From contig JAISBF010000047.1 in assembly GCA_031266335.1 (NCBI GenBank), positions 1-33,643 of the forward strand: a DNA stretch of 33,643 bases, read 5' to 3'. The DNA is from Verrucomicrobiales bacterium. Lineage in GTDB: Bacteria > Verrucomicrobiota > Verrucomicrobiia > Methylacidiphilales > JAAUTS01. Under the pieces are notes generated by a model. The model did not search any database. It saw only the letters and a program-made list of their open reading frames with translations, and was not told the origin of the DNA. Numbering within the stretch: the stretch's first letter is position 1; each line of letters begins with the position of its first letter. The translations under genes were made by a program, and so were the position numbers. Of the stretch, positions 608-33,643 are shown one piece after another.

Positions 608-776
608 GTGTCGAACCCCACCCTGCAACGATTTTCCCGACCCCCCGACATCGGGAACCCCACTCCGCAACGATTTTCCCGACCTCCCGACATCGGGAAC
701 CCCACTCCGCAGCGATTTTCCCGACCTCCCGACATCGGGAACCCCACTCCGCAGCGATTTTCCCGACCTCCCGAAA
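608..776 (+). repeat. Tandem array A: 4 units of 42 bp
   Basis: Unit CGGGAACCCCACTCCGCARCGATTTTCCCGACCTCCCGACAT repeated contiguously; contains the palindrome TCCCGACATCGGGA. Confidence 0.95.
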
Positions 777-830: not shown

Positions 831-1598
831 GTGAAACTTATCAAACCTATCTTTAACGAATACAAAGCCCTCGAAATCTACGAATACATCAAGGAGACGT
901 TAGAGGACTTAAAGAAAACCAACTTCGTCAACGGCGCCCTCCAGTCGCTCTATAACCAAGTCGAGCCGGCGTTCACCTTGTACGACCAAGCCACCTACCA
1001 CGACCGCGCCCTGCCCCTCACCGACGAGTTGAAAAAGCACGACACCGCGCGCGACCACGCCTACACCGGCCTGCACTACACCTTCCGCGGCCTGACCTAC
1101 CACTACAACACCGCCTACGCCGAGGCCGCGCGGGTCTTGCTCGGCGTGTTCAAAAAATACCCCGCCGCCACCCGCGAGGGCTATAACGAGGAGAGCGGCA
1201 TCATCGCCAACCTGTGCCAAGACCTGCTCACCGCCCGCACCCCGGGCCGCGTCGCCCTGGACACGCTGGACACCACCGACCTGCGGCTGCTCAAATGGGT
1301 GGAAAACCTGCGCGAGCACAACACCCAATTCGGCAAACTGATGGACGAGCGCTACGCCGACCTGGGCAAGGCCGCCGCCGTCCCGTTAATCAAAGACACG
1401 CGCCCGGCGGCAGTAACGGGCATCGTGACCATCCTGGAAAAAATCGCCGCCCTGGTCACCGCCGACGTGAACCTGGCCATCACCGAACCGCTACTCGCCC
1501 AAATCAACCAACGCACGGAGAAATACAACACCGTCGCCCGCGCCCGCCGCAAACGGCATGAGGACGCGGAGGCTGATGAGATAAGCCCTGAACGCTGA
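831..1598 (+). CDS. DUF6261-like hypothetical protein
   Basis: 255 aa, GTG start; pattern HDTARDHAYTGLHYTFRGLTYHYNTAYAEAARVLLGVFKKYP..GYNEESGIIANLCQDL...LLKWVENLREHNTQFGKLMDERY resembles DUF6261 from memory. Confidence 0.7.
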   Translation: MKLIKPIFNEYKALEIYEYIKETLEDLKKTNFVNGALQSLYNQVEPAFTLYDQATYHDRALPLTDELKKHDTARDHAYTGLHYTFRGLTYHYNTAYAEAARVLLGVFKKYPAATREGYNEESGIIANLCQDLLTARTPGRVALDTLDTTDLRLLKWVENLREHNTQFGKLMDERYADLGKAAAVPLIKDTRPAAVTGIVTILEKIAALVTADVNLAITEPLLAQINQRTEKYNTVARARRKRHEDAEADEISPER

Positions 1599-9812: not shown

Positions 9813-9917
9813 GGAGAAGCCTTCTCCGCTGACGGAGAAGCCTTTTCTGCTAACGGAGAAGGCTTCTCTGTTAACGGAAAGAGCTTCTCTGTTAGCGGAG
9901 AGAACTTCTCTGTTGCC
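9813..9917 (-). repeat. Tandem array B: 5 units of 21 bp
   Basis: GGAGAAGCCTTCTCCGCTGAC / GGAGAAGCCTTTTCTGCTAAC / GGAGAAGGCTTCTCTGTTAAC / GGAAAGAGCTTCTCTGTTAGC / GGAGAGAACTTCTCTGTTGCC. Confidence 0.95.
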
Positions 9918-10132
9918 GTTTTTGGTCCATCCCCGGTGGGTATGGATAACCGCATGGGGAATGTTAGTTGAAAACCGGCCTCGCGCAGAGTCGCGGAGAC
10001 GCGAATTTTTTAATGGTAACTTGTTCTTGGCGTTTCTGCCCGCGGTTTGCTTTTTTAGGTTCCTCGCAGTTAGCAGTGGCAGCGCTGACGCCGGCCTCCC
10101 TCCACCGCCCATGCCCCGCCCCTGCGTGAGCT

Positions 10133-10254
10133 AATTCCCCTTCCGTGAAGGGGTGGCCGCGGAGCGGACGGGGTAGTTCAGCGCTAACAGGAACCTCGCC
10201 CCACACGCTGAACTCCCCCGGCGCTCCGCGCCACCCCTACACGGAAGGGGAATT
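10133..10254. repeat. Family I paired inverted repeat, locus 4
   Basis: AATTCCCCTTCCGTGAAGGGGTGGCCGCGGAGCGGACGGGGTAGTTCAGCG...CGCTGAACTCCCCCGGCGCTCCGCGCCACCCCTACACGGAAGGGGAATT. Confidence 0.95.
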
Positions 10255-10417
10255 AGCTCGCGCAAGAGTCAAGGTCAGTGAGAGGTGTTCCGGTGTCAAC
10301 GCTCCCATTGCTCACCGTGAGGAACCTTGTTTTAATTACCCTCCTCAAAAAAACTCTGTGACGTTCCAAATCTCTGTGGTTCTCCGTGGCCAAAAATGTT
10401 AGTTTGACCATGCGAAT

Positions 10418-28328: not shown

Positions 28329-28329
28329 T

Positions 28330-28623
28330 GCAAATGCTTTTGCCACTTCTGACGTGTCGGAACCCAGCAATGCAAATGCTTTTGCCACCTCCGACATGTC
28401 GGAACCCATAAATGCAAATGCTTTTGCCACCTTCGACACGTCGGAACCCATAAATGCAAATGCTTTTGCCACCTTCGACACGTCGGAACCCATAAATGCA
28501 AATGCTTTTGCCACCTTCGACACGGCGGAACCCATGAAAGCAAATGCTTTTGCCACCTTGACACCGGTAAAGGTCATAAAAGCAAATGCTTTTGCCACCT
28601 TGACACGGCGAGGGACGGGAAAA
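28330..28623 (+). repeat. Tandem array D: 7 units of 42 bp
   Basis: Invariant GCAAATGCTTTTGCCAC at 28330, 28372, 28414, 28456, 28498, 28540 and 28582, each followed by a 25-nt semi-variable part such as CTTCGACACGTCGGAACCCATAAAT. Confidence 0.96.
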
Positions 28624-31364: not shown

Positions 31365-33146
31365 GTGGCCACCACCGCGTGGCCGCTGACCATGAACTTG
31401 TACCGTCGCATTATCGCCTATTACCGGCCGTTCACCGGCGGGGTGTTGCTGGCGCTGACGCTGCTGGTGCTGTCCATCGGCCTGAATGTCCTGAAGCCTT
31501 GGCCGGTGAAATTCGTCATTGACGGCGTGCTGGGCGGTCACGCGGCGAGTTATTCGTTCTTTGACGGCGCGCTGGATTTCGGCGCCTCGCTGCTGGCGTC
31601 GGTGCTGGCGCTGGTGGTCATTTACGTGGGCTGGGGCGTGCTGAACATGCTCGGCAGTTACTGGTTCATCGCCATCGGCCTGCGCGCGTTGCTGCGGCTG
31701 CGCACGGAATTGTACGCCTGCCTGCAAAGCCTGCCGCTGCGCTATCACGACAACAAGCGGAGCGGCGACAGCATTTACCGCGTGGCCTACGACAGCCAGT
31801 CGATTCAGACTTTTTTCAACAAAGGCTTCGCCACCGTCGTCAGCTCCGCGCTGACGCTGGCGGGCATGTTCGCGATCATGTTCCACATGAACGTCAAGCT
31901 CAGCCTGCTGGCGCTGCTGGTGGTGCCGTTCCTGTTGCTCACCATCAGCGTCTTCGCCGCGCGCATCCGGCGGGAGACAGCGCGGTTGCAGCAGGAGGAG
32001 AGCGAGGTGTTGTCGCGGGCGACGGAAGGGTTGAACACCATCCGCATCGTACACGCCTTCGGGCGGGAGGATTACGAGGTCGGCAAGTTCGAGGAAGATT
32101 GCCGGCAATCCATGAACGCCAACCGCCGGCTCACCCGCACCAGCGTGGTGAGCACCATGGCGGTGGGCGCGGTCACGGCGCTGGGCCTGGCGCTGTTGTT
32201 GTATTTCGGCGCCAGGGAAGTGCAGGCGGCGCGCATGGAAATCGGCGACCTGTGGATTTTCATGAGTTACTTGCTGATGCTGTACCAGCCGCTCGAACAA
32301 CTCAGCTACACCGCCTGGTCGCTGGAAGGCGCGGCGGCCGGCGCGCAACGGGTGTTCGAGGTGCTCGACGCTGACAATGAGGTGCGGGACCTGCCGCGCG
32401 CCGCGCCGCTCACCGTCAGCGGCGGGAAAATCGAGTTTCAACACGTGACGTTCGGCTACACCCCCGACCGGAAAATCCTGCAAGACCTGACGCTGACGGT
32501 GGCACCGGGCCAGACCGTGGCCATCGTCGGCGGCACCGGCGCGGGCAAGACCACGATTTTATCGTTAGTGACGCGGTTTTACGACCCGCTGGCCGGGCGG
32601 GTGTTGATTGACGGCCAGGACCTCCGGACGGTGAAAAAAAATTCCCTGCGCAACCGGATTTCGATGGTCTTGCAGGAAACCCTGCTGCTCAACAACAGCG
32701 TGGCGGAGAACATCGCCTACGGCTGTCCCGGCGCCACCATGCCGCAAGTCATCGCCGCCGCCCAGGCCGCGCAAGCCCACGAATTCATCGCGCAACTGCC
32801 GCAAGGTTACGACACCCAGGTCGGCGAGCGGGGCGTCAGGCTCAGCGGCGGCCAGCGTCAGCGCATCGGCATCGCCCGCGCCTTCCTGCGCCACAGCCCG
32901 ATTCTGCTGCTCGACGAACCCACCAGCGCGCTTGATTTGCAAACCGAGGCGGCGCTGATGGTGACCCTGAAATCATTGATGCAACGCCCCACCACGCTGA
33001 TCGTGACCCACCGCCTCGCCACCATCCATGACGTTGACCGGATTCACGTCATGGCGCACGGCCGGGTAGTGGAAAGCGGCACCGGCCCCGAACTCCTCGC
33101 CCAAGGCGGAGTGTACGCCAAGCTGTGGACCGCGCGCGCCACTTAA
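31365..33146 (+). CDS. ABC transporter ATP-binding/permease protein (MsbA-like exporter)
   Basis: TM domain plus VAIVGGTGAGKTTILSLVTRFYDPLAGRVLIDGQDLR, LSGGQRQRIGIARAFLRHSPILLLDEPTSALD, VTHRL. Confidence 0.94.
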   Translation: MATTAWPLTMNLYRRIIAYYRPFTGGVLLALTLLVLSIGLNVLKPWPVKFVIDGVLGGHAASYSFFDGALDFGASLLASVLALVVIYVGWGVLNMLGSYWFIAIGLRALLRLRTELYACLQSLPLRYHDNKRSGDSIYRVAYDSQSIQTFFNKGFATVVSSALTLAGMFAIMFHMNVKLSLLALLVVPFLLLTISVFAARIRRETARLQQEESEVLSRATEGLNTIRIVHAFGREDYEVGKFEEDCRQSMNANRRLTRTSVVSTMAVGAVTALGLALLLYFGAREVQAARMEIGDLWIFMSYLLMLYQPLEQLSYTAWSLEGAAAGAQRVFEVLDADNEVRDLPRAAPLTVSGGKIEFQHVTFGYTPDRKILQDLTLTVAPGQTVAIVGGTGAGKTTILSLVTRFYDPLAGRVLIDGQDLRTVKKNSLRNRISMVLQETLLLNNSVAENIAYGCPGATMPQVIAAAQAAQAHEFIAQLPQGYDTQVGERGVRLSGGQRQRIGIARAFLRHSPILLLDEPTSALDLQTEAALMVTLKSLMQRPTTLIVTHRLATIHDVDRIHVMAHGRVVESGTGPELLAQGGVYAKLWTARAT

Positions 33147-33244
33147 AAACTTTTAAACTTCCCCCTTGACACTCTCCAACAACGCATTAATTTACGCCCC
33201 ATGATTATCGAGCTTGACAACGTGGCAGCCGGGCGGGTAGAGTA

Positions 33245-33278
33245 CCCTCGCTCCCTCGCTCCCTCGCTCCCTCGCTCT
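33245..33278. repeat. 8-bp microsatellite (CCCTCGCT)x4
   Basis: CCCTCGCTCCCTCGCTCCCTCGCTCCCTCGCTC read directly. Confidence 0.9.
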
Positions 33279-33363
33279 TGAGTTAAATTTCCGGCCAAAG
33301 TTTACCCGCTTCATTCCCCATGCGGCTGTCAACCCCCGTCACGGATTGACCAAATCCACCAAC

Positions 33364-33426
33364 AGAGAGGTCTTCTCCGTCGTCAGAGAAGACGTCTCTG
33401 TTAACAGAGAAGACCTCTCTGAACCC
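33364..33426 (+). repeat. Tandem array E: 3 units of 21 bp, homologous to array B
   Basis: AGAGAGGTCTTCTCCGTCGTC / AGAGAAGACGTCTCTGTTAAC / AGAGAAGACCTCTCTGAACCC. Confidence 0.93.
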
Positions 33427-33478
33427 GTTTTTACCCCTTTCAACCCCATATCAACCAACAACTAAAGGAATCCAACCA

Positions 33479-33643
33479 TGTCCACCCAATTCATTAAATC
33501 CCTCACCCGCAACTACTTGCCTGCCAACGAAGACCAAGCCTTCCTCTGGCTCCTCAACTTCAAGACCGAGTTGCCGCGCTTCTCCAACATCTACAAACTC
33601 GACCCCGACCTCATCCAGCAACTCTCTTTTTCCACCACCGTTT
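33479..33643 (+). CDS. Hypothetical protein, 5' part only (truncated by window end)
   Basis: MSTQFIKSLTRNYLPANEDQAFLWLLNFKTELPRFSNIYKLDPDLIQQLSFSTTV, open to window end; ATG preceded by AAAGGAATCCAACC. Confidence 0.75.

Follow-up and report, generated by a model that had tools for sequence, protein, structure and literature searches.

Repeat arrays and genes of the window

The window, that is, the whole stretch of 33,643 nt analysed here, comes from an uncultured member of the Verrucomicrobia and carries tandem arrays with units of 21 or 42 bp at separate places, of which arrays A and E each lie upstream of a small gene. The gene behind array E and its relatives are referred to as E-type. The features are as follows.

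613..774, + strand: array A, 42-bp units, 3.9 copies (TRF)
831..1598, + strand: DUF6261 gene (PF19775, E 5e-24), the sole copy in this genome by an own-genome search
9813..9914, - strand: array B, of the array E class, with box and leader and without a gene (orphan; TRF period 21, 4.9 copies)
28329..28607, strand not assigned: orphan array, 42-bp units, 6.7 copies (TRF), between two convergent genes with no family gene adjoining
31365..33146, + strand: ABC-transporter gene, flank marker of locus E, 98% identical at the matching locus of genome G003
33214..33243, + strand: predicted promoter-like site TTGACA-N18-TAGAGT, 5' of array E (weight-matrix scan, 13.4 bits; L007)
33245..33277, + strand: 8-bp microsatellite (CCCTCGCT)n, 4.1 copies (TRF, 100% match)
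33312..33325, + strand: conserved box CATTCCCCATGCGG, common to loci E and B and most E-type copies
33360..33421, + strand: array E, about 3 palindromic 21-bp units, AGAGA/TCTCT class (TRF and by eye)
33422..33477, + strand: leader AACCCGTTTTTACCCCTTTCAACCCC...AACTAAAGGAA, 56 nt from array E to ATG
33478..33643, + strand: multicopy gene of about 243 aa, first 55 codons, then contig end (ATG 33478-33480)

TRF placed array E at 33360-33419 with a period of 21 and 2.9 copies, and the last unit was followed by eye to 33421. Its units have the form [AGAGA]agacg[TCTCT]gttaac, and an own-genome search found this exact pattern only on three contigs and in array B. An earlier note on this DNA had described palindromic arrays standing 53-55 bp before start codons at three loci. 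Array E was correctly recognised, but the following ATG lies at 33478, one base earlier than the note had it, and the gap is 56 nt. Array A does precede the DUF6261 gene, which starts with a GTG at 831, again at a gap of 56 nt. Array B lies on the minus strand as described, but the ATG assigned to it opens no family gene. The leader AACCCGTTTT..AACCCC, which the note had seen in both B and E, is indeed common to them.

The -10 region of the promoter-like site is itself a small palindrome (GGGTAnnnTACCC, GAGTAnnnTACTC, GCGAG..CTCGC) at window positions 33220-33260 and at the equivalent place elsewhere, and its arms co-vary with the sequence of the microsatellite that follows. A repeat AACGCTGAACTACCCCGTC..CCTTCACGGAAGGGGAATT occurs at about 10050-10260, with similar pieces near 480-600 and 1600-1790; it has dozens of matches on both strands of genome G004 and represents a separate dispersed inverted-repeat family.

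A multigene family preceded by arrays of different sequence

The 55 residues encoded before the contig end matched 12 places in the genome of the window (G000). The full 243-aa protein as query had 18 matches in G000, 25 in G003 and 14 in G004, and a single distant one in G002; the four genomes are of one genus. An array stands directly before the gene in every intact 5' region inspected, and its unit sequence varies by locus, with the classes AGAGA/TCTCT, GGAGT/ACTCC, GTAGT/ACTAC, GGAAA/TTTCC, GTAAA/TTTAC and ACGAA/TTCGT. Very divergent family members (24-36% identity) also have arrays, made of other units. When 390 Verrucomicrobiota genomes were searched with a profile, relatives turned up in G243, G018, G072 and G277; these genomes represent further families and classes, and 21-bp arrays lie upstream of most of the relatives. 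The association of arrays with gene families extends across several classes of one phylum.

The shared 5' module that the earlier note had proposed is borne out as a multi-locus family, in which a TTGACA/TAnnnT promoter-like site, an 8-bp microsatellite, a CATTCCC box, the array and a AACCCGTTTTTACCCC leader follow one another in this order. TTGACA-N18-TAnnnT recurs at the equivalent position in most E-type copies; the 8-mer of the microsatellite at that position differs by locus, and the microsatellite is present in G018 too.

The E-type protein had no match in Pfam, NCBIfam, PADLOC or PHROG, no relative among solved structures was found by sequence, and no plasmid or phage relatives were found for the two proteins tried. 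An AlphaFold model was built from eight relatives (mean pLDDT 62). Residues 150-231 form a beta sandwich in the model, with block means mostly above 80 pLDDT, and the best Foldseek matches of the C-terminal part are Fn3 modules in the PDB (prob 1.0, E 1.6e-3). Judged from the model, the C-terminal half of full-length E-type copies has an Fn3-like fold. The N-terminal half is helical in the model at low confidence, therefore no function was read from it. The genes behind the 21-bp arrays, which the earlier note had taken for unrelated, belong mostly to one superfamily with a helical N-terminus and an Fn3-like C-terminus.

Full-length members have a median pI of 6.0 and are mostly acidic, which is atypical of DNA-binding proteins. 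No partition NTPase or recognisable DNA-binding partner adjoins the arrays, and no recombinase was found adjoining the loci. Large internal deletions were seen in eight E-type copies (L036, L040, L041, L089, L103, L106, L110 and L112); seven of these remain in frame, and the copies retain their array, their N-terminus and the final residues ..AKHSEGAN.

Conservation of the period without conservation of the sequence

The 73 distinct family genes included 68 with at least 250 nt upstream, and these were compared with 1000 random 650-nt windows from the same genome sample, an array being called at a lag-21 segment score of at least 20. This score was reached by 56 of the 68 upstream regions and 22 of the 1000 controls. 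When lags 22, 42, 43, 63 and 64 were counted as well, 59/68 family genes had an array versus 22/1000 windows, an enrichment of about 40-fold, and the palindromic 21-bp array family that the earlier note had suspected at multiple loci is thereby confirmed. The mean lag-21 score was 82 in the family and 8 in the control. In the family average, the only lags above the control were 21, 42 and multiples of the 8-bp microsatellite. Related copies inflate these family counts, and the stronger argument is the spread of the arrays across distant subfamilies.

A basic period of 21 dominates in 55 family arrays and one of 22 in two; in L105 and L108 it is 43. Array E has about three units and most relatives have 8-12. 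The unit sequences are unrelated between loci and only their length is kept; the pitch is conserved while the sequence is not. Since periods of 21, 22 and 41-43 are multiples of about 10.5 bp, they fit two or four helical turns. A reading of the 21-bp unit as seven codons of a peptide was rejected, because periods 22, 41 and 43 occur and are not multiples of 3; the arrays are non-coding and positioned upstream of start codons.

Genome-wide statistics were drawn from a 710-kb sample, made up of the window and 60 contigs, and from homology searches. In this sample TRF gave 29 clusters at periods close to 21, 42 or 63, of which some were short or borderline, and there were about 20 sequence-distinct arrays of period 21/42. 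About 11 of the 29 clusters precede a small gene of the Fn3-like superfamily or DUF6261, several lie at contig ends and others are orphan. Some orphan arrays retain the 5' module after loss of the gene, and others are without the module. Orphan arrays of period 21 or 42 were seen at L226 (645-912), L260 (4343-4514), L254 (6704-6874), L255 (19110-19237) and in the window at 28329-28607. Arrays were rarer in other genomes than in this one (small samples: 1.5 per 100 kb in G243, 0.7 in G002 and 0.6 in G018), and none was seen in the 99-140 kb sampled from G001 or G006. The arrays seen in the sister genome G002 (L304, 1403-1573; L071) have a period of 22, not 21.

Four-turn arrays beside DUF6261 genes

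The DUF6261 gene of the window is a member above the curated cut-off of its family (85.4 bits against a Pfam gathering cut-off of 27). Of the 390 genomes, five were found to carry DUF6261. In L292, L299 and L298 an array of period 41 or 42 stands 26, 150 and 169 nt 5' of the gene, respectively, and in L290, L294 and L295 such an array lies just 3' of it; L291 and L296 have no array close to DUF6261, and in L297 the nearest is about 1 kb away. A single-sequence structure model of the protein reached a pLDDT of 42 and was of no use for reading the fold. Two protein families without detectable relation therefore share the array association, one mostly in a two-turn and the other in a four-turn form, and the earlier suggestion of a module attached to unrelated small genes holds in so far as at least two families of small proteins are accompanied by arrays. 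As far as could be found, the link between DUF6261 and 41/42-bp arrays is apparently undescribed in the literature.

In L290 (G277), a CRISPR array (36-bp repeat, 814-1145) is followed by DUF6261 (1317-2064), the 41-bp array (2087-2329) and, from about 2549, cmr2 (PF12469, E 8e-29).

The fixed spacing of 53-55 bp claimed by the earlier note is not supported as a general rule. In the E-type subfamily the gap from array to ATG has a mode of 56 nt (range 26-63 plus one of 105), which is explained by shared ancestry; in other subfamilies it is 43-336 nt. Arrays beside DUF6261 show distances of 26, 56, 150 or 169 nt when placed before the gene, and some are placed after it.

Exchange of blocks between loci and gain of the window locus

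Seven pairs of loci in G000 and G003 were matched by their upstream flanks at 97-98% identity. The array class is kept in four pairs (C160/C16, C22/C162, C67/C104 and C81/C56) and swapped in the other three: AGAGA at C88 against GGAGT at C265, AGAGA at the window locus C94 (3 units) against GGAAA at C173 (8 units, gene internally deleted), and GTAAA at C170 against CAGAAA at C28. In C88/C265 the two sequences are nearly identical up to CATTCCCGATGTGGT, the array block is replaced, and identity returns at AACCCGTTTTTACCCC. The CATTCCCCATGCGG box marks the upstream limit of the exchanged block, as the identity of these orthologues stops just past it. The number of units also differs between orthologues, for example in C160/C16.

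Residues 4-10 of the protein track the array class, with an identity of 0.91 within and 0.49 between classes, whereas the gene body is independent of it (0.54 versus 0.60 for residues 36-60, 0.80 versus 0.82 for the C-terminal 110 residues). The array and the first ~10 codons move together. All genomes of the genus are fragmented assemblies with several contigs ending inside family genes; there is a slight possibility of a wrong join at a repeat, though in the swapped pairs the flanks, the promoter and the spacer are single-copy in detail. Blocks have been exchanged at orthologous loci.

The element after the ABC-transporter gene is present in G000 and G003, and no array follows the orthologous gene in G002, G004, G005 or G001. 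This places the gain of the window locus in the lineage of G000 and G003. The earlier proposal of a mobile or recombining module is supported by both the cassette exchange between loci and this lineage-specific gain.

DNA element, RNA leader or by-product

Promoter positions were predicted with our own E. coli-like weight matrix, and with it a promoter-like site of at least 10 bits was predicted upstream of the array at 20 E-type loci and between array and ATG at nine other loci. In the former layout the array would form part of the leader, and in the latter it would lie 5' of the -35 box and thus outside that transcript. The pitch is identical in both layouts. This bears on the idea, raised in the earlier note, of an RNA leader, in which a transcribed ladder of about 10 hairpins would act on mRNA through stability, translation or capture of a protein. 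A strong promoter-like site does precede the array at E-type loci and the array stops about 56 nt before the ATG; arrays are palindromic in 29/29 cases of the leader class and in 1/9 upstream of the promoter, a contrast confounded with subfamily; and Subirana and Messeguer report that similar satellites of the 52-nt type are transcribed in Bacillus coagulans (PMC8625621). However, palindrome mismatches of the G.U type do not exceed A.C mismatches (80 versus 115 overall; G.T 92 versus A.C 89 in the leader class), compensation within units is absent (16 double changes against 23.7 expected by independence), the antisense RNA fold is more stable than the sense fold in 20 of 25 arrays, the pitch is unchanged where the array lies outside the leader, and the window has no Rfam match. 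No RNA hairpin signature was found in the mismatch, compensation and antisense results, none of which indicates selection for a hairpin of the sense strand, and since the palindromes show neither a G-U preference nor compensation, a DNA-level cis element is favoured over a hairpin leader, which we consider unlikely. That arrays, microsatellites and boxes serve mainly as a recombination substrate for cassette exchange among paralogues, much as silent cassettes do for variable surface proteins, appears quite improbable to us. Blocks are replaced between conserved boxes in all three swapped pairs, the N-terminus is linked to the array while the body is mosaic, and unit number varies between orthologues; but the exchanged arrays have no common sequence and are therefore cargo rather than homology, ordinary gene conversion could make do with the conserved boxes and the genes, the loci have no recombinase found next to them, and pitch conservation is left unexplained. 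The arrays could also be a neutral or selfish by-product, made and symmetrised by slippage or template switching with an intrinsic two-turn ruler and linked to genes by co-duplication only. Mutation by quasi-palindrome correction is known to occur, there are many orphan arrays and decayed copies, sequence turnover is fast, and the sampled parts of G001 and G006 held no array. We nevertheless find this doubtful, as the pitch survives full sequence turnover beside genes that are 20-30% identical in other classes, arrays are enriched about 40-fold beside the family, and the deletion copies retain the array and, in seven of eight, the reading frame.

We tentatively favour the reading that the array acts in cis at the level of DNA as an element belonging to a multigene family, with its sites stacked two or four turns apart, and hold it to be not far short of evenly balanced. 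The array would sit in the promoter/leader region of a small-protein gene, and because the pitch equals two (or four) helical turns, every unit would present the same face of the helix. Constraint would act on pitch and not on sequence, units would turn over by unequal exchange within the array, and blocks comprising the array, the leader and the initial ~10-30 codons would be replaced as a whole between paralogous loci, so that each locus would come to have its own array class. The pitch may serve cooperative or oligomeric protein binding or a local DNA shape that sets the expression of the adjacent gene, with phased sites for a dimeric or polymerising protein as a candidate form. Most of the adjacent proteins are acidic, so that binding by an outside factor has at least the same likelihood as self-binding, and the low pI disfavours self-binding by the adjacent protein. 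Counting against a DNA element, the promoter positions derive from an E. coli-like matrix, DUF6261 arrays can be 3' of the gene, many arrays of this genome have no such gene adjoining, and the 29/29 versus 1/9 contrast in palindromes is also explicable by an RNA role.

An extension of this reading, which we put forward as a speculation with a low chance of being right, is that the arrays and the adjacent small proteins (Fn3-like and DUF6261) make up one cognate system, in which the protein or a dedicated partner would read the pitch and locus-specific classes would separate paralogous loci while cassettes are traded.

Comparison with known systems

Several known repeat systems resemble the arrays in part. 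CRISPR was rejected, as the units are contiguous and degenerate, without spacers. In plasmid partition centromeres (parC/parH-type iterons), a small gene likewise adjoins helically phased tandem sites whose sequence is specific to each system; the likeness is one of layout only, as no partition NTPase or DNA-binding partner was recognised beside the arrays. REP/REPIN elements (GTAG- and CGTC-tagged palindromes, PMC3733652) are likewise short extragenic palindromes in high copy, but REPs have one sequence per genome and a tag, whereas here the sequence is locus-specific and the units are in tandem at a strict pitch. A REP/REPIN reading was rejected, since the array E unit pattern is confined to three contigs and array B and other loci differ; a Pfam search of proteins beside the loci found no RAYT (Y1) transposase. 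PARCELs (PMC2996958) likewise consist of tandem palindromes that spread through genomes and are shuffled there, but they are coding (25-residue repeats), and this reading was rejected for the present arrays, which are non-coding and include periods of 22, 41 and 43.

The closest likeness is to a class of bacterial tandem repeats described by Subirana and Messeguer (Int J Mol Sci 2021, PMC8161180), in which the unit size is constant at 20-23 or 52 nt and the sequence varies. There, 20-21 nt is equated with two helical turns, and a protein polymerising on DNA, or small RNAs, are suggested. Those satellites are also non-coding, with several unrelated families of equal length (20-21 nt) in one genome. 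The size range of 20-23 nt holds for the 57 family arrays of period 21 or 22; the class comprises arrays of at least four repeats, against about three units in array E and 8-12 in most relatives. That work deals mainly with Bacillus, whereas the present arrays are from Verrucomicrobiota, and the sections consulted mention neither an associated gene family nor a promoter, a microsatellite, exchange at orthologous loci or four-turn forms of 41/43 bp. What appears to be new is that the arrays go with two gene families, belong to a stereotyped 5' module, include four-turn forms and are exchanged as blocks between loci. The present arrays fit the constant-size, variable-sequence class.

These satellites have been an open puzzle because length alone is conserved and no gene was tied to them. 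For two identifiable gene families, length now has a link to genes that spans several classes of one phylum and comes with a stereotyped 5' module and with alleles naturally swapped between sister species, and the question of why two helical turns becomes testable by expression, footprinting and changes of pitch. If arrays and adjacent proteins did form a cognate system, an explanation would be at hand for all bacterial satellites of the constant-size, variable-sequence kind.
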